From Crateriforma conspicua (lineage in GTDB: Bacteria; Planctomycetota; Planctomycetia; Pirellulales; Pirellulaceae): DNA of 64,000 nt. The first letter of the stretch is position 1, and every line of letters starts with the position of its first letter. Positions 32,941-42,201 of this stretch are shown in pieces. Under the pieces are notes generated by a model. It searched no databases. It had not been told where the DNA came from and was given only the letters and a program-made list of their open reading frames with translations. The stretch covers positions 1,302,001 to 1,366,000 of the forward strand of contig NZ_CP036319.1 of the NCBI RefSeq assembly GCF_007752935.1. The letters run 5' to 3'. Position numbers and translations under genes: made by a program.

Positions 32941-34074
32941 ATGCGCCCGATGAATTTCCCGACCACCGCCGGTCGACTAGTTTTGGGGCTGTTGGTCATG
33001 GCATTGTTTTGCGTGGATGTTGCCGCGCAAACCGGTCGCGGCCCAGGATTCGGACGCGGCGGTGGCCGTGGACCAGGATTCGGGATGGGACGTGGATTTC
33101 GCGGGGGCGCGGGCGGTGGTGAACAAGCCGGCGGACCCCACGCCCATGACGATCGTCACGATGCCGATCACGAAGTGTTTCAGTTCTTGCTGAGTCACCA
33201 CGACAAGATTCGTCGCACGGTGACCGAAACCGATGACGGCGTGATCACGGTCACCGAATCGGACGATCCCGACATCGCGGCAAAGATTCAGGAGCACGTT
33301 CATTGGATGAAGATTCGCGTCGATGAGATTCAACCCATTCGGATGCGAGATCCTTTGTTTGCGGAACTGTTTCGGCACGCCGACAAAATCAAAATGCAGC
33401 ACGAAGATACCGAAAAAGGTGTCCGTGTGATCGAAACTTCGGACGATCCGGCCGTCGCGTCTTTGATCAAAGCGCACGCTGAAGTGGTTTCGGGCTTTGT
33501 CGCAAACGGGTTTGCCGAAGCGATGAAGAACCATGCGGTCCCCGCCGACGTGGAAGCGCCGAAAGCGACGCAGCAGCCGACGTCCGATTCATCCGTCGGC
33601 ACGCCGCTGGGCCAGCCACGGATTCCAGCCGGAAAACCAGTGTTCCACTTGCCTGATGCGACGCAGCAGCCTCGCAGCGATAGCAAGCTGTTGATCGACG
33701 TGACGCAAAGTAGCCCCGCTGACCAGACCCACGATGCATTGGAGACGATTGCCAAGTACGTCAACTTGTACCATGCCGGTGGCAAAGATCAGCAGAGCCC
33801 CGAAATCGCGGTCGTGCTGCACGGCGGCGCCACCTTCATCGCACTGAACGATGATGCGTATGCGTCGCGTTTCGGCACCAAGGGCAATCCGAATGCGTTG
33901 CGTTTGCGACAGTTGCACCAAGCCGGCGTGGAGTTCTATGTGTGTGGTCAATCACTGTTGCATGGCAACGCACGTCCCGACGATCTGGTCGTCTTCGCGC
34001 AGACTGCGGTTTCTGCGTTGACCAGCCTCGTCAATCTGCAAAGCGATGGCTTTGTTTGCATTGATTTGAAATAG
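32941..34074 (+). CDS. Exported DsrE-like protein with duplicated N-terminal module
   Basis: 377 residues. A signal peptide (RLVLGLLVMALFCVDVAAQ) is followed by an RGG-type low-complexity segment (residues 32-60). Two homologous 45-residue modules come next, 81-125 and 141-185: each has a HxDKI, a DxGV...TESDDP / ETSDDP and a xIxxHxxxx element, offset by exactly 60 residues. A Gln/Pro linker leads to a C-terminal DsrE/DsrF-like domain (about 245-377) with ALETIAKYVNLYHAGG, IAVVLHGGATFIALND and the conserved cysteine Cys335 in FYVCGQSL. DsrE-type proteins carry sulfane sulfur on this cysteine. An exported version with this front module is unusual. Next to rhodanese and flavohemoglobin genes. 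Confidence 0.78.
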   Translation: MRPMNFPTTAGRLVLGLLVMALFCVDVAAQTGRGPGFGRGGGRGPGFGMGRGFRGGAGGGEQAGGPHAHDDRHDADHEVFQFLLSHHDKIRRTVTETDDGVITVTESDDPDIAAKIQEHVHWMKIRVDEIQPIRMRDPLFAELFRHADKIKMQHEDTEKGVRVIETSDDPAVASLIKAHAEVVSGFVANGFAEAMKNHAVPADVEAPKATQQPTSDSSVGTPLGQPRIPAGKPVFHLPDATQQPRSDSKLLIDVTQSSPADQTHDALETIAKYVNLYHAGGKDQQSPEIAVVLHGGATFIALNDDAYASRFGTKGNPNALRLRQLHQAGVEFYVCGQSLLHGNARPDDLVVFAQTAVSALTSLVNLQSDGFVCIDLK

Positions 34075-34405: not shown

Positions 34406-34535
34406 TTGACGTAAAGATTTGGCAGGGTAGTTTTTGGGTGAAGCCCGGTGATGGCGATCGGAAGCCCTGGTTTCCAATCGTCGCGTCGTGGTCCCACCTA
34501 TCCCGCCTTTGAAATCCAACCCAACGCACGCCGTA

Positions 34536-35765
34536 ATGCTAAGCGAACAAACTGTCGCGATTGTCAAGGAAATCACTCCGCTGGTTGCCGCCAACGCGGA
34601 AACCATCACGCGTCGTTTTTACGAGCGGATGTTCGAAGCGAATCCGGAAGTCCGGGCATTCTTCAACCAAGCTCACCAACACACCGGGGGCCAGCAAAAG
34701 GCGCTGGCCGGCGCGATATGTGCCTATTTCACACACATCGATAATCCGGGCGTGCTGATGCCGGCGGTCGAATTGATCGCGCAAAAGCACTGCTCGCTGA
34801 ACATCAAAGCGGAACACTATCCGATCGTTGGCGAAAACTTGTTGGCCGCGATCAAGGATGTCATGGGCGATGCCGCCACGCCGGAGATCGTCAATGCAGT
34901 GGCCGAGGCCTATCAGTTCTTGGCCGGCATCCTGATCTCACGCGAAGCGGACATTTACCAGCATCAGCAATCCCAACCCGGTGGTTGGACAGGAAAGCGG
35001 TCCTTTGTCGTCCAAAGAAAAGTCTGCGAGAGTTCGGAGGTGACATCGTTCTACCTTCGGCCGGCTGATGACGAACCGCTGCCCACGTTTCAGGCCGGTC
35101 AGTACATCACGGTCCACATTGATCATCCCGAAACGCCGACGTCGCCAAGGAATTACAGTCTTTCGGATTGCCCGGACCAACCGCATTACCGCATCAGTGT
35201 CAAACGCGAAAAGGGGCCACAGGAAAGTGCACCCGGTGGCCTGATATCGAATCATTTGCACGATTCAATCGACGCAGGTCAAACCGTGGATTTGGGGCCA
35301 CCGTGTGGCGAGTTCACATTGGATCTTGTTCGATCGGCCGAACGTCCGGTGGTTCTTTTGGCCGGTGGGATCGGGGTGACGCCTTTGTTATCGATGGCGA
35401 AAACGCTGGTCAATCGGGCCATCGATACACCGATCTGCTTTGTCCAAGCGGCACGCAACAGCGACGTGCATGCGTTTGCGAATGAGATCGAAGAACTAGC
35501 GGGCCGGCACGACGACTTCACCTACAAGGTCTTGTACGACACGCCGCCGGATGCCGGCCAGGGTCGAAGGTGTGATCATGTGGGATTCCTTTCCGCGGAC
35601 CTCATTGGTCAGTGGACGCCCTATGGGGACGCGGATTTTTATTTCTGTGGTCCCAAGCCGTTCATGGCATCCGTTGAGAACGCCCTGGAACAGTTGGGGG
35701 TCGATCCATCGTGCATGCGATATGAGTTTTTTGGCCCTAAACAGGAACTGAGCCAGGTGACATGA
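34536..35765 (+). CDS. hmp: Flavohemoglobin (nitric oxide dioxygenase)
   Basis: 409 residues from the ATG at 34536; the in-frame codon at 34488 adds 16 residues lacking similarity. It converts NO and O2 to nitrate using NAD(P)H. The globin domain (1-140) contains [18 protein letters not shown] and proximal His85 in AQKHCSLNI, the same number as E. coli Hmp. The FAD domain has [11 protein letters not shown] and the RNYSLSD motif. The NAD domain has [15 protein letters not shown] and [13 protein letters not shown], ending in MRYEFFGP. Every catalytic motif is intact. The stop overlaps the start of the YwiC-like gene by four bases (ATGA), so the two are co-translated. Confidence 0.95.
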
Positions 35766-36586
35766 ATGATGCGATGGTCGTGGGGGCACCACCACTGCCG
35801 ACCTCCGCTGTGGCGGTCGTCAGTTTGAAGCCCAAGGAACACGGTGCTTATGCCATCGTGATGATTCCATTGTTTTCGGCGTTGTTGTCGGTCGGCCCCA
35901 GTTGGGTCGGCGCTGCGATCGTGGTTGCATCGCTGGCCGGATTCTTTGCACACGAACCGATACTGGTCGCGATGGGGCATCGTGGCGGACGTGCCCAACG
36001 CGGCGCCCCTGGGGCAAGGGCGCTGGCGTCGGGTTTGTTGGGGCTGGCCGTTGCGGTCGGTGCGTTCGCGTTGTGGTCTGCGGATCCGCCGACGCGGATC
36101 GCGCTGATCGCGTGTCTTGCACTTTCGACCATTTGCTTTGCGATTGCGATTGTTCGCCTGCACCGAACCTTGGGCGGTCAATTGTTGGGCGTTGCGGGCC
36201 TGTCATTGCCATGCATGCCGATTTTGTTGGACGGTGGCCTGGATCGTTCGAACAGTCTGTTGGTGTGGTTGGTTTGGCTGTTGGGTTTTGCATCGACCAC
36301 GTTGGCGGTTCGCGGCGTGATCGCGATGCAAAAACGTCAAACCGCCGTCACGAGTTGGATTGGTTTGGGAATCACCACAGCAGCGACGGTCGGACTTGTG
36401 GTCAACCAAGTTTGGTTGCCTTTGGCAGCGGTTCCCATGATCGTCGGCGGATGGGGGTTGATGTTTTGGCCGCCGCCGGCCAAGCATCTGCGCCGCGTGG
36501 GTTGGACGTTGGTGGCGGCCACAATGTTGACGGCACTTGGAATCATCAGTGCCGTCGTTCTTGGTCTTCCGGGCCCCGTCGCGTGA
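35762..36586 (+). CDS. YwiC-like integral membrane protein
   Basis: 274 residues with about eight membrane helices and no signal peptide cleavage site. The family signature [20 protein letters not shown] near residue 22 and [19 protein letters not shown] identify the YwiC-like family. Its Bacillus namesake lies beside anaerobic nitrate-respiration genes. Function is unknown; a role in nitrogen-oxide metabolism is an inference from that context and from the four-base overlap with hmp here. Histidines and lysine in the first loop are conserved-looking. Confidence 0.8.
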
Positions 36587-38759: not shown

Positions 38760-39407
38760 TCAGCCGTTTTCCAACACCCACTGGGTTGCTTCGCGAGTCA
38801 ATGATGCCATGTCTCGCAAGTCGACTTTTTCTTTGATGCGTGCCCGATAGGTTTCCACCGTCTTGGGACTCAGGTTCATCGTCTTGGCGATGTCCTTGGT
38901 CGTCAAACCTTGGCCGATCAATCGGAATGTTTCCAATTCGCGATCCGAAAGGTTTTCCACCGGCGACTGTGCCACGGCGTCTTTGCCCATCACGGCACGC
39001 TGCAACATTTTGGCCGACAGTTCACGACTGATGTACAGTTCACCGCTGATCACGGTTCGAATCGCTTCGATGATCTTGTCGGTGACCTGTTGCTTGTTGA
39101 TATAGCCCTTGGCACCGGCGCGTAGGGCGCGTTCGGCGTACAGCGATTCGTCGAACATCGACCAAACCAGCGTTTTCAGTTCCGGTGTCTTGGTTTTTAG
39201 GATCTTGATCAGGTCGATGCCGCTGCCTGATTTCAGCGAGATATCGACGACCGCCAAATCCGGATGCGTTCGGTCGATCACTTCCAATGCCTCATCCTGG
39301 TCGGCGGCTTCGCCACAGACGGCCAAGTCGGGTTCCACGTCGACACGGGTGATCAATCCGTCACGTGTGCTGGGGTGGTCATCAACGATAACGATGCGGT
39401 GCAACAT
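38760..39407 (-). CDS. NarL/FixJ-type response regulator (LuxR DNA-binding domain)
   Basis: 215 residues from the ATG at 39407. The receiver domain shows IVIVDDHPSTRDGL, phosphoacceptor Asp55 in DLAVVDISLKSG, and GAKGYINKQQ. The LuxR helix-turn-helix is LSDRELETFRLIGQGLTTKD, followed by MNLSPKTVETYRARIKEK. It is the obvious partner of the LOV histidine kinase ending 4 bp upstream, whose HisKA_3 type domain normally pairs with NarL-type regulators. Output genes are unknown. Longer readings to 39653 overlap the kinase and have no similarity. Confidence 0.93.
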   Translation of the reverse strand: MLHRIVIVDDHPSTRDGLITRVDVEPDLAVCGEAADQDEALEVIDRTHPDLAVVDISLKSGSGIDLIKILKTKTPELKTLVWSMFDESLYAERALRAGAKGYINKQQVTDKIIEAIRTVISGELYISRELSAKMLQRAVMGKDAVAQSPVENLSDRELETFRLIGQGLTTKDIAKTMNLSPKTVETYRARIKEKVDLRDMASLTREATQWVLENG

Positions 39408-39411
39408 AAGA

Positions 39412-42201
39412 TCACTCGGTTGGTAAATCGGAAAGAAGTGCGATGAATTCCTCGTCGTCCTGTGCGACGGCGTCGCCGGGGAAGATACAGGCGACTTCCG
39501 TGCCGCCGTCGGGGCGTGGTCCGATCTGGATTTGGCCGCCGATTTGTCCGGCGCGGTAGTCCATGGTCCGCAGCCCCATGCCGCGATCCGCGTTGGGTTT
39601 CTTTGAAATTCCGACGCCATCGTCTTGGATTCGCAGTGACCATTGGTCGTCACGGAAGCCTAGTCGAACGCGTATGTTGGCCGCTTCGCCGTGGCGGACG
39701 GCATTGGTCACCGCTTCCTGAGCGATGCGGTACAGTTGGGTGGCCGTTTGATTCTCGCGAAACGGAACGGGACGATCGCATTCGAACCGGCAATTCACAC
39801 CGTGAAGTTCACGGATGCGATCGCACATTTCGGTCAACGCCGACGTCAATCCGTGACGGTCAACGTCCACCGGATTCATGCCTCGCGCCAGAGTACGGAC
39901 TTGCCGCAGTGTGCGATGGACCGATTCCCGCAACTTGCCAGCGATCCGCCGCAGTGACGCCAAGTCAACCGACGTCACGTCCCGGTCGATCGATGCACCC
40001 AGTGCGTCGGCCAGCATGCCCATGCCGGTCAGTTCTTGTCCCACGCCGTCGTGCAGGTCGTTTCCGATCCGCCAACTTTGTGCGGCTGCGATTTCCAAGA
40101 CTTCTTTTTCCAACGCCCGCCGCTGGGTCAGGTCCGTCAGTGCACCCAGCAGCCGAGCCGGCTGGCCCTCGGCATCACGGCTCAGCAGCGTGCGCTCTTT
40201 CACCACGGCATAGGTACCGTCACGACGCATCAAGCGGTATTCGATCAGCCCCTTCGAATCGTCCGCGCGTCCTTCGACGGCACGTGACGGTGATGAAATC
40301 ACACGCCGTAAATCATCGGGATGAATGTGTTGGTGCCACCACGTATCGACATCGACATCGCCGGATGGGCCGCCAAACTGTTCGTCAAAGACTTCATTCC
40401 ACCACATGCGTTGTCGTAGCAGATCGATGTCCCAGATCGCATCATTCGTGGCTCGCAACGCCAACCGCAAACGCTCTTCGCTTTTGGCCAGACGTCTGGC
40501 CGCCTGGGATCGTTGGATCACCACGCCCGCCAGTTGGGCAAAGTGTGAAAGCAACGAAAGCTCGGTTTCGGTCGGCCGAGCCGCGTGGGTGGAAAACATC
40601 GACAGCACACCCAACACGTCACGCTGGGTCGACAGAATGGGTTCGGCCCAACAAGAGCGAATTCCAGCCGCTTTGGCCAGCGGATGAATCAATTCGCTGC
40701 GTTCATGCAGATGGATATCGGGGATGATTTGCCGTTGACGCTGCGACGCGGCAAACGTACAGCAGCAGACGCCCGGTTCGATCGGCACCCGTTCCATGCG
40801 GCAACGCAGTTCCGGCGACAAGCGTGGCGCGCAAGCGCACCGTAGGGATTGACCGTCGTCGTCGATCAAGAAGATCGCCGCACTCATTCGCGCACACGAC
40901 GATTCCGCTTGCGTCACGATCAAACGCAGCAGTTCGTCGAACGGGGTGCCATCGCTTAGGGCGTCCAACAGCAGACGTTCTCGCTTTAGATCCGTCAGCG
41001 ATTGTTGCCGTTCGGTCACATCGCGTTCGATGCTGACGTAATGGGTCAGTTCACCGCGATCATTGTGGATCGGTGAAAGTGAAATTTCGTTCCAAAACAT
41101 CGACCCGTCTTTGCGATAGTTGCGCAACGTCACGGTGCACGCACTGCCTTGACGCAAGGCTTGACGCATGACGTGGATTTCAAACTGATCGCGATCATCG
41201 GCTTGCAGGAATCGGCAATTGCGGCCGACGATTTCTTCGCTGCGATATCCCGTCATCTTCTCGAAACTGGAATTGCAATAGACGACGGGAAAATCCGGGG
41301 CTCTGGCATCGGCGATCAGCACGCCCACTTGGGTCGCCTGCATGGCCAAGTTCTGGATTCGCATCAGCAAGGCGATGTCGTCATTGGTGCCGCTGGCGGC
41401 ATCTTGCTTGCCATTGCGAAACGTTCGCCACCGCGTCAGCTCGTGTTCCATTTCGCCGAAGAAACCACCCATGGCATCGCCGGGGGCCGTGACGCCTTGG
41501 TGCCACTCGTTCTTCAGCCGAACCGCATCGCCGGGACGCCACCGATCCATCCATTTTGCCAAAGCGGGTTGGGCAGAAAGCAGCGCGGTGATTTCTGGTT
41601 CCAGTTTCAATTCACGATGCGATTCGGTCCAATCGTGGGCTCGCCGAACAAATGCCAGGAACAGTTCCAAACGCTGGGACCAAACCGGCGCCAATGCACT
41701 GCGGATCGCCGCCGAGCAAAGATCGGCTTCGCCAATGCGCAGAAACGTCGCCACACTGCAGACGAACAGCGAATGTTCCAGCGCGGGGTGATCGCTGGGC
41801 CATTGTTCCAGTGGCGGATCGACGTCGTTCAGCCGGTCCATCTGGCTGAGAAGTTCCTGGCGACTCGGGGCGGGCGCGTCCAGCAGTGCGGCGATGTCGG
41901 TCGCGCTGTGGGCACCGGGGCCTTCGTTGGGGCCGACGGTCGCCGGATTCGGTGTCAGCAACATTGCGACGTGCCTGCCCAGGCAGTACGGGTTGTTGCA
42001 AAACCGCGAAAGATAGACGAACAGCCGTTCCTTGAATCGAAACGGCAGCGGATTATCCAAGTAGGCGACTTGAGCCTGACGCCATAGGTCCCAAGCCAAC
42101 TCGGGCGTGGGGAATGACAACTCAAAGAAACTTGGAATCGTCCCAAATCGATCAAAGATTTCCTGACGAATCGAATCGGCCTGAATCGCTACACCGTTCA
42201 T
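39412..42201 (-). CDS. Sensor histidine kinase with AhpD-like, LOV, GAF and PAS domains
   Basis: 929 residues from the ATG at 42201. In order: an AhpD/CMD-like helical domain (about 12-180, Cys68, Cys73, His77 in CNNPYCLGRH); a LOV domain (284-400) with GRNCRFLQ (Cys329 is the flavin-adduct cysteine) and NYRKDGSMFWNEISLSPI; GAF (about 410-560); PAS (about 570-700, WDIDLLRQRMWWNEVFD); HisKA_3 with His717 in NDLHDGVGQELTGM; and HATPase (VTNAVRHGEA, DDGVGI, DRGMGLRTM). No membrane segment, so cytoplasmic. The LOV set predicts FMN binding and blue-light control of autophosphorylation. The flavin-contacting Gln near the C-terminus of LOV is Glu392. Together with the regulator 4 bp downstream it forms a light-responsive two-component system. 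Confidence 0.9.
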   Translation of the reverse strand: MNGVAIQADSIRQEIFDRFGTIPSFFELSFPTPELAWDLWRQAQVAYLDNPLPFRFKERLFVYLSRFCNNPYCLGRHVAMLLTPNPATVGPNEGPGAHSATDIAALLDAPAPSRQELLSQMDRLNDVDPPLEQWPSDHPALEHSLFVCSVATFLRIGEADLCSAAIRSALAPVWSQRLELFLAFVRRAHDWTESHRELKLEPEITALLSAQPALAKWMDRWRPGDAVRLKNEWHQGVTAPGDAMGGFFGEMEHELTRWRTFRNGKQDAASGTNDDIALLMRIQNLAMQATQVGVLIADARAPDFPVVYCNSSFEKMTGYRSEEIVGRNCRFLQADDRDQFEIHVMRQALRQGSACTVTLRNYRKDGSMFWNEISLSPIHNDRGELTHYVSIERDVTERQQSLTDLKRERLLLDALSDGTPFDELLRLIVTQAESSCARMSAAIFLIDDDGQSLRCACAPRLSPELRCRMERVPIEPGVCCCTFAASQRQRQIIPDIHLHERSELIHPLAKAAGIRSCWAEPILSTQRDVLGVLSMFSTHAARPTETELSLLSHFAQLAGVVIQRSQAARRLAKSEERLRLALRATNDAIWDIDLLRQRMWWNEVFDEQFGGPSGDVDVDTWWHQHIHPDDLRRVISSPSRAVEGRADDSKGLIEYRLMRRDGTYAVVKERTLLSRDAEGQPARLLGALTDLTQRRALEKEVLEIAAAQSWRIGNDLHDGVGQELTGMGMLADALGASIDRDVTSVDLASLRRIAGKLRESVHRTLRQVRTLARGMNPVDVDRHGLTSALTEMCDRIRELHGVNCRFECDRPVPFRENQTATQLYRIAQEAVTNAVRHGEAANIRVRLGFRDDQWSLRIQDDGVGISKKPNADRGMGLRTMDYRAGQIGGQIQIGPRPDGGTEVACIFPGDAVAQDDEEFIALLSDLPTE

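Follow-up and report, generated by a model that had tools for sequence, protein, structure and literature searches.

A Crateriforma conspicua histidine kinase with a predicted AhpD-fold N-terminal domain and a LOV domain carrying glutamate in place of the active-site glutamine

Analysis of a 64,000-nucleotide stretch of the Crateriforma conspicua genome (here named the window; the genome around it is a single contig of 7.18 Mb) revealed a gene for a histidine kinase in which a LOV domain is preceded by an N-terminal domain with a predicted AhpD/CMD fold. A LOV histidine kinase as such is a known kind of protein; what sets the Crateriforma kinase apart is the combination of a LOV domain with a glutamate, Glu392, and an AhpD-fold input. 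From the sequence we infer, with a probability of roughly 0.55, that this kinase and the adjacent response regulator form a two-component system of the cytosol in which two inputs are stacked, light and hydroperoxide or redox state, both of which would control the output. The AhpD-fold domain reaches far beyond the Crateriforma locus and is more interesting than the LOV domain, since an unlabeled domain of many bacterial sensor kinases gains a fold, a hypothesis for its active site, and a direct test. In the openly accessible literature, we found no description of histidine kinases that contain an AhpD-like domain or of planctomycete LOV kinases with the same layout.

The kinase gene and its partner regulator

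The kinase is encoded on the minus strand of the window by a stop-free reading frame with an ATG start, followed by the gene for a response regulator. The corresponding features are:

39412..42201, minus strand: kinase open reading frame, 929 amino acids, with AhpD-like, LOV, GAF, PAS, HisKA_3, and HATPase_c domains (translation, Pfam, PDB sequence search, dN/dS)
40513..40944, minus strand: GAF domain, residues 420 to 563 (Pfam GAF_2, 1.1e-15)
40102..40479, minus strand: second PAS domain, about residues 575 to 700, with approximate bounds (second PAS_3 stretch in Pfam)
39478..40071, minus strand: kinase core, HisKA_3 at residues 711 to 778 and HATPase_c at residues 820 to 908 (Pfam, residue positions)
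38760..39407, minus strand: NarL/FixJ-type response regulator, 215 amino acids, Response_reg and GerE helix-turn-helix, phospho-acceptor Asp55 (Pfam, orthologues)

In Pfam searches, PAS_9 and PAS_3 cover residues 293 to 397 of the kinase, and the second PAS domain is the counterpart of the PAS_3 match at residues 576 to 658 in the orthologue from genome G028. The phospho-acceptor of the kinase is His717, located in HisKA_3 within the motif NDLHDGVGQ. A LOV domain, a DHp domain with a phospho-accepting histidine, and HATPase_c, which together define a LOV histidine kinase, hence occur in one chain. A previous interpretation made from the sequence alone (the sequence-only reading) had assigned LOV, GAF, PAS, HisKA_3, and HATPase modules to one soluble protein; Pfam and the PDB sequence search find all of them, and the kinase is predicted to be soluble, as all its family-matched parts are soluble domains. 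In the two species of the genus, the gene differs at 58 synonymous and 7 nonsynonymous codons, and a dN of 0.0038 against a dS of 0.091 indicates purifying selection.

The start of the NarL-type regulator gene lies 4 bp past the kinase stop, as the sequence-only reading had stated, and the same pairing of kinase and regulator genes occurs in four other genomes. A promoter scan of the kinase/regulator operon did not find a sigma-70-like site. Within the stretches compared, the regulator was the only neighboring gene of the window that was also found beside the orthologous kinases, and therefore no output gene can be named. Elsewhere in the window, a flavohemoglobin-like gene and, directly after it, a YwiC-like gene are located at 34488-36586 on the plus strand, with a gene for a DsrE-domain protein upstream (32941-34074).

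An N-terminal domain with a predicted AhpD/CMD fold

No Pfam or NCBIfam family matched residues 1 to 280 of the kinase. The Pfam CMD profile gave a best E value of 0.0021 and responded to 2 of the 51 aligned members of the domain family, with nothing above the cut-off and no match for the Crateriforma kinase. The assignment of the domain is based on structure prediction and profile comparison:

41539..42180, minus strand: N-terminal domain with AhpD/CMD fold, residues 8 to 221 (AlphaFold2, VIA-align, hhalign; no Pfam or NCBIfam family)

An AlphaFold2 model computed from the alignment of 51 sequences (alignment A3) reached a pLDDT of 90.3 and a pTM of 0.87. The top 21 rows of a Foldseek search were all AhpD/CMD-type structures, at weak E values of 0.03 and up. 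VIA-align yielded a Z score of 13.8 to Streptococcus pneumoniae AhpD (6e8l; 169 residues, rmsd 3.8) and scores of 12.5 to 13.6 to the next eight AhpD- and peroxidase-related structures, compared to 7.4 for Sestrin2 and 3.0 for unrelated chains. Since a Z score of about 13 can by itself be common for all-helical models, independent sequence evidence matters here. Using hhalign, the domain was compared with a CMD alignment built from AhpD-like proteins of relatives, which gave 96.8% at an E value of 2.9e-10 with the Glu, Cys, and His positions in register; all controls (15 column shuffles and a reversal) remained at E > 0.2. An hmmsearch of PDB sequences ranked 2PRR (0.006) and 6K40 (0.017) first. 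According to the model and these comparisons, residues 8 to 221 are predicted to have the AhpD/CMD fold.

The domain is present in 8 of 392 sampled planctomycete genomes, Crateriforma included. A scan of GTDB genomes, for which the pattern was derived from the narrower alignment A2 (the wider alignment A1 gave no usable pattern), identified 58 loci in at least ten phyla. These comprise Planctomycetota, Pseudomonadota, Nitrospirota, Acidobacteriota, Myxococcota, Cyanobacteriota, Verrucomicrobiota, Bacteroidota, Rokubacteria, relatives of Halobacteriovorax, and Tectomicrobia, with taxa read from the record titles and some of the loci coming from metagenome-assembled genomes. Among 49 full-length proteins with the domain (including the Crateriforma kinase), 37 carry HATPase_c, 30 PAS_4, 19 a receiver domain, 2 GGDEF, and 2 EAL. 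Judged by sequence, the AhpD-like domain serves as a portable module of signaling proteins, in which it is mostly N-terminal. A pairing of AhpD and LOV domains is not widespread, as the LOV cysteine motif was found in the same open reading frame in none of the 58 relatives. The domain was also observed alone in proteins of 240 to 294 amino acids without any other Pfam domain (L032:4025-4744 and L116:4941-5822) and together with a single receiver domain in proteins of 363 to 369 amino acids (L086 and L095).

Conserved residues of an AhpD-type active site

Conservation across the 51 sequences delimits the putative active site:

41971..42030, minus strand: AhpD-type active-site hairpin with Glu58, Asn70, Tyr72, Cys73, and His77, and with Cys68 nearby

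The spacing of these five residues is identical to that of the relay in the AhpD protein PA0269, i.e., Glu36, Cys48, Tyr50, Cys51, and His55 (PMC3141380), with Asn70 replacing the first cysteine of the CxxC motif. All elements of the proton relay of the AhpD/CMD superfamily (Glu, Tyr or His, Cys, and His) are present. Glu58, Tyr72, and His77 are found in 51/51 members, Cys73 in 46/51 (it is absent in the other 5), and Cys68 in 45/51; a CxxC redox pair is missing, as position 70 is a cysteine in 0/51. Compared to AhpD/CMD proteins (PF02627; PA0269, 2PRR, and 6E8L), the domain family thus shares the all-helical fold, the Glu-x14-Cys-x3-His arrangement, the tyrosine before the cysteine, and identical spacing, but it lacks the first CxxC cysteine, occurs in signaling proteins, and is missed by the CMD profile. 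A comparable regulatory protein is Sestrin2, whose N-terminal Sesn-A domain (PMC4674687) has the AhpD fold and likewise one relay cysteine. In contrast to the Crateriforma kinase, Sestrin2 is eukaryotic, has no kinase, and retains the first rather than the second cysteine, and the Z score to the Crateriforma domain is only 7.4. This first cysteine alone is enough for Sestrin2 to reduce alkyl hydroperoxide and to form a stable sulfenic acid (PMC4674687). Conservation of the relay and the Sestrin2 precedent therefore suggest, by analogy, that Cys73 is reactive and serves sensing rather than turnover.

An alternative, which we consider possible but rather unlikely, is that the LOV domain is the working light input, while the AhpD-like domain is a nonredox module for ligand binding or oligomerization that has kept the fold and a partial active site. 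Loss of the first CxxC cysteine in 51/51 members would fit this, as would Sestrin2, whose C-terminal AhpD-fold domain has lost catalysis (PMC4674687). TTHA0727 was interpreted as lacking peroxidase activity since it has lost the Cys130 counterpart (PMC3141380), and the AhpD-like domain may therefore bind a ligand instead of reacting with peroxide. Moreover, a second set of residues is conserved outside the AhpD relay, namely, His189 (49/51), Trp191 (50/51), and position 203 (Asp in 48/51 and Glu in the Crateriforma kinase). Together with His195, which is nearly invariant in the domain family, these residues (window 41593-41637) possibly form a ligand or metal site. However, the invariance of Glu58, Tyr72, and His77 and the presence of Cys73 in most members across many phyla constitute a pattern of relay residues that is hard to explain without cysteine chemistry. 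A subgroup of the AhpD-like domains (L077, L100, L103, L105, L108, L118, and others) has CxxCHSC (Cys73, Cys76, and Cys79) in place of CxxRHxG and with it a different possible cysteine pair.

The LOV domain carries a glutamate at the active-site glutamine position

The features of the LOV domain are as follows:

41002..41346, minus strand: LOV domain, residues 286 to 400 (PDB LOV domains at 2e-35, NCBIfam, tree)
41215..41217, minus strand: Cys329, the flavin-adduct cysteine, in GRNCRFLQ
41026..41028, minus strand: Glu392 (GAA) at the active-site glutamine position (alignment with PDB LOV domains and 12 planctomycete Cys-LOV domains, pattern scans)

The two LOV signatures named in the sequence-only reading, GRNCRFLQ with Cys329 and NYRKDGSMFWNEISLSPI, are both present. 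In a PDB sequence search, residues 282 to 407 matched solved LOV domains with an E value of 2e-35, with "sensory box" LOV constructs of Pseudomonas putida as the top match. The best NCBIfam domain matches are YtvA_fam and BluLightHisKinLov; as only the LOV part matched, the whole-protein cut-offs were missed (141 of 250 bits and 140 of 450 bits, respectively). The PDB E values and the purifying selection on the gene rule out a chance motif as the source of the LOV call, and on sequence grounds the LOV identity is safe. Since Cys329 and the flavin contacts Arg330, Gln333, Asn361, and Asn371 are all retained, flavin binding and light chemistry are very likely. The LOV domains of the two species of the genus do not differ in a single amino acid. 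A search for LOV relatives in viral contigs found none.

In canonical LOV domains, the flavin is read by a glutamine in strand Iβ (Q123 in YtvA and Q513 in AsLOV2). The sequence-only reading had taken the Crateriforma LOV domain as canonical, which does not hold: this residue is Glu392, and alignment with PDB LOV domains shows that also the glycine two positions before it is replaced, by Ser390 (HYVSIERDVTER vs YYIGIQRDVTEH). In 12 other planctomycete Cys-LOV domains, two of which come from one gene that both species of the genus share, the position is occupied by Gln in 11 cases and by Leu in 1 (G028), leaving Glu392 unique among the 13. Scans of 392 planctomycete genomes, in which strict patterns make the genome counts lower bounds, found the Gln-type pattern in 7 genomes; a Glu-type match that reads as LOV was obtained only in the Crateriforma kinase gene. 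The pattern spans 203 bases there and in all seven Gln-type matches. Further Glu-type matches in G335, G482, and G358 span 211 and 201 bases, and their translated starts are not LOV-like. The codon for Glu392 is GAA in both species of the genus and differs by one base from the glutamine codon CAA. Other departures from the canonical site were observed in a LOV domain of G028 (L141, G028:C1:3114811-3115203), which has Leu at the Gln position and an intact cysteine, and in Cys-less LOV-like domains of other planctomycetes (L145 and L142) with NMRLLQ and His at the Gln position (G024) or NARFLA and Gln (G068).

The glutamine is typical of LOV domains rather than strictly defining, since LOV signaling without it has been published (PMC9098866). 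The engineered kinase YF1 retains light-dependent signaling with the Q123E exchange, and about 350 natural LOV domains lack the glutamine and can be photoreceptors; most have Leu or Ile, and charged residues are largely absent (Dietler et al. 2022, PMC9098866). Therefore, Glu392 is not a strong argument against light sensing. Like these natural Gln-deficient receptors, the Crateriforma LOV domain retains the conserved LOV residues including the cysteine; they mainly carry Leu and Ile, and also Ser, Thr, His, or Cys, whereas Crateriforma has Glu (PMC9098866). By its sequence, it is an unusual natural case of a class reported as largely absent and bears on Gln-free LOV signaling.

Given the scarcity of charged residues at this position in natural LOV domains, the domain might, by analogy, be attenuated or partly inactive. 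A stronger form of this idea, that Glu392 and Ser390 abolished useful light signaling and left a redox or structural flavin domain, with the AhpD-like and GAF domains driving the system, appears improbable. It would be in line with that scarcity (PMC9098866), with the ability of LOV flavins to also sense redox potential (PMC6798134), and with orthologues that function without LOV. However, Cys329 and all other checked flavin contacts are intact, the LOV domain shows 0 amino acid differences against 58 synonymous changes over the gene between the two species, and YF1 Q123E still responds to light (PMC9098866).

Orthologous kinase-regulator pairs and the origin of the LOV domain

An AhpD-kinase with a NarL regulator directly downstream was also found in G028, G082, G086/CA13, and Roseimaritima sediminicola, with regulators that share 65%, 53%, 62%, and 64% identity, respectively, with that of Crateriforma. 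The kinases of G028 (L029) and Roseimaritima (L096) have the order AhpD-PAS-GAF-PAS-PAS-HisKA_3-HATPase. Their first PAS domain occupies the LOV slot, and 23 residues separate it from the GAF domain, as in Crateriforma (Pfam bounds 370/393 in G028, 424/447 in Roseimaritima, and 397/420 in Crateriforma). Hence, these kinases share the N-terminal domain order, the linker length, and regulators of about 64 to 65% identity with Crateriforma but differ in the ordinary, Cys-less PAS domain in the LOV slot and in one extra PAS domain before the kinase core. In a tree with weakly supported inner branches and long branches for some PAS rows, the Crateriforma LOV domain groups with LOV domains and apart from the PAS domains of the orthologues (92/98). 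The AhpD-LOV kinase is present in both genomes compared for the genus.

Since an ordinary PAS domain fills the same slot with the same 23-residue linker, a LOV domain appears to have replaced PAS in an existing, light-blind AhpD-kinase/regulator system of Pirellulaceae, in the Crateriforma genus. Such a replacement is the simplest account of these sequences and would make the pair older in Pirellulaceae than its LOV input. This also bears on the designation as a light-sensing system in the sequence-only reading: the LOV input is supported by sequence, but because orthologous pairs exist without LOV, the designation covers one lineage-specific input only. Similarly, the pair of LOV kinase and NarL/LuxR-type regulator described in that reading is borne out by sequence, but the description was incomplete, as it assumed a canonical LOV domain and missed the N-terminal domain. 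Where LOV and PAS are exchanged between otherwise parallel kinase-regulator pairs, evolution provides a natural experiment on how an existing pathway acquires light control; engineered chimeras such as YF1 are made by the same operation.

A proposed two-input mechanism

In the proposed system with two stacked inputs, the AhpD-fold domain (residues 8 to 221) would most likely sense an organic hydroperoxide or the thiol redox state via oxidation of Cys73, which would become a sulfenic acid or be disulfide-bonded to the conserved Cys68. The LOV domain (residues 286 to 400), which would have displaced the PAS domain after the AhpD domain in the Crateriforma genus, would bind flavin and, under blue light, form the adduct at Cys329; Glu392 or water would take the place of the usual glutamine in relaying the signal of N5 protonation. 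Both inputs would act via helical linkers, GAF, and PAS on the HisKA_3 dimer and tune autophosphorylation of His717, which would set phosphorylation of Asp55 in the adjacent regulator and thereby its action on DNA. The LOV step draws on established knowledge of LOV domains, and the AhpD step is a proposal. A more far-reaching interpretation, which we put forward tentatively and at somewhat less than even odds, is that the AhpD-like domain is an undescribed single-relay-cysteine hydroperoxide or redox input at the head of sensor kinases and further signaling proteins of many phyla, coupled in the Crateriforma genus to a natural Glu-type LOV domain, and that the kinase integrates blue light and light-caused peroxide stress.

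Histidine kinases are the commonest effectors of prokaryotic LOV receptors (PMC6798134), in line with an ordinary LOV histidine kinase like many catalogued that merely has an uninformative N-terminal extension; this is very improbable, as it is contradicted by the confident fold and conservation of the AhpD domain heading kinases in many phyla and by the replacement of the active-site glutamine with Glu392. The Crateriforma kinase shares with LOV-HK of Brucella, LovK of Caulobacter, and the engineered YF1 the soluble LOV kinase layout, the Cys adduct motif, and the histidine kinase output. Unlike these, it has a HisKA_3 core, is paired with a NarL regulator, contains additional GAF and PAS domains, starts with the AhpD-fold domain, and carries Glu for the active-site Gln. 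LovK is reported to integrate light and redox.

Further light-related genes in the genome

Two kinds of flavin-based blue-light sensors, LOV and BLUF, are encoded in the Crateriforma genome. Since it contains a second LOV domain of the canonical Gln type, a BLUF protein (C1:1997327-1997602, E value of 1.1e-30), and two photolyase-family proteins, a light response of Crateriforma is plausible from its gene content. The second LOV domain (C1:3430351-3430719; L143 and L002) has NCRFLQ together with the glutamine and is part of a large multi-PAS protein (open frame of 1750 amino acids) about 8.5 kb from a photolyase-family gene at 3438902.
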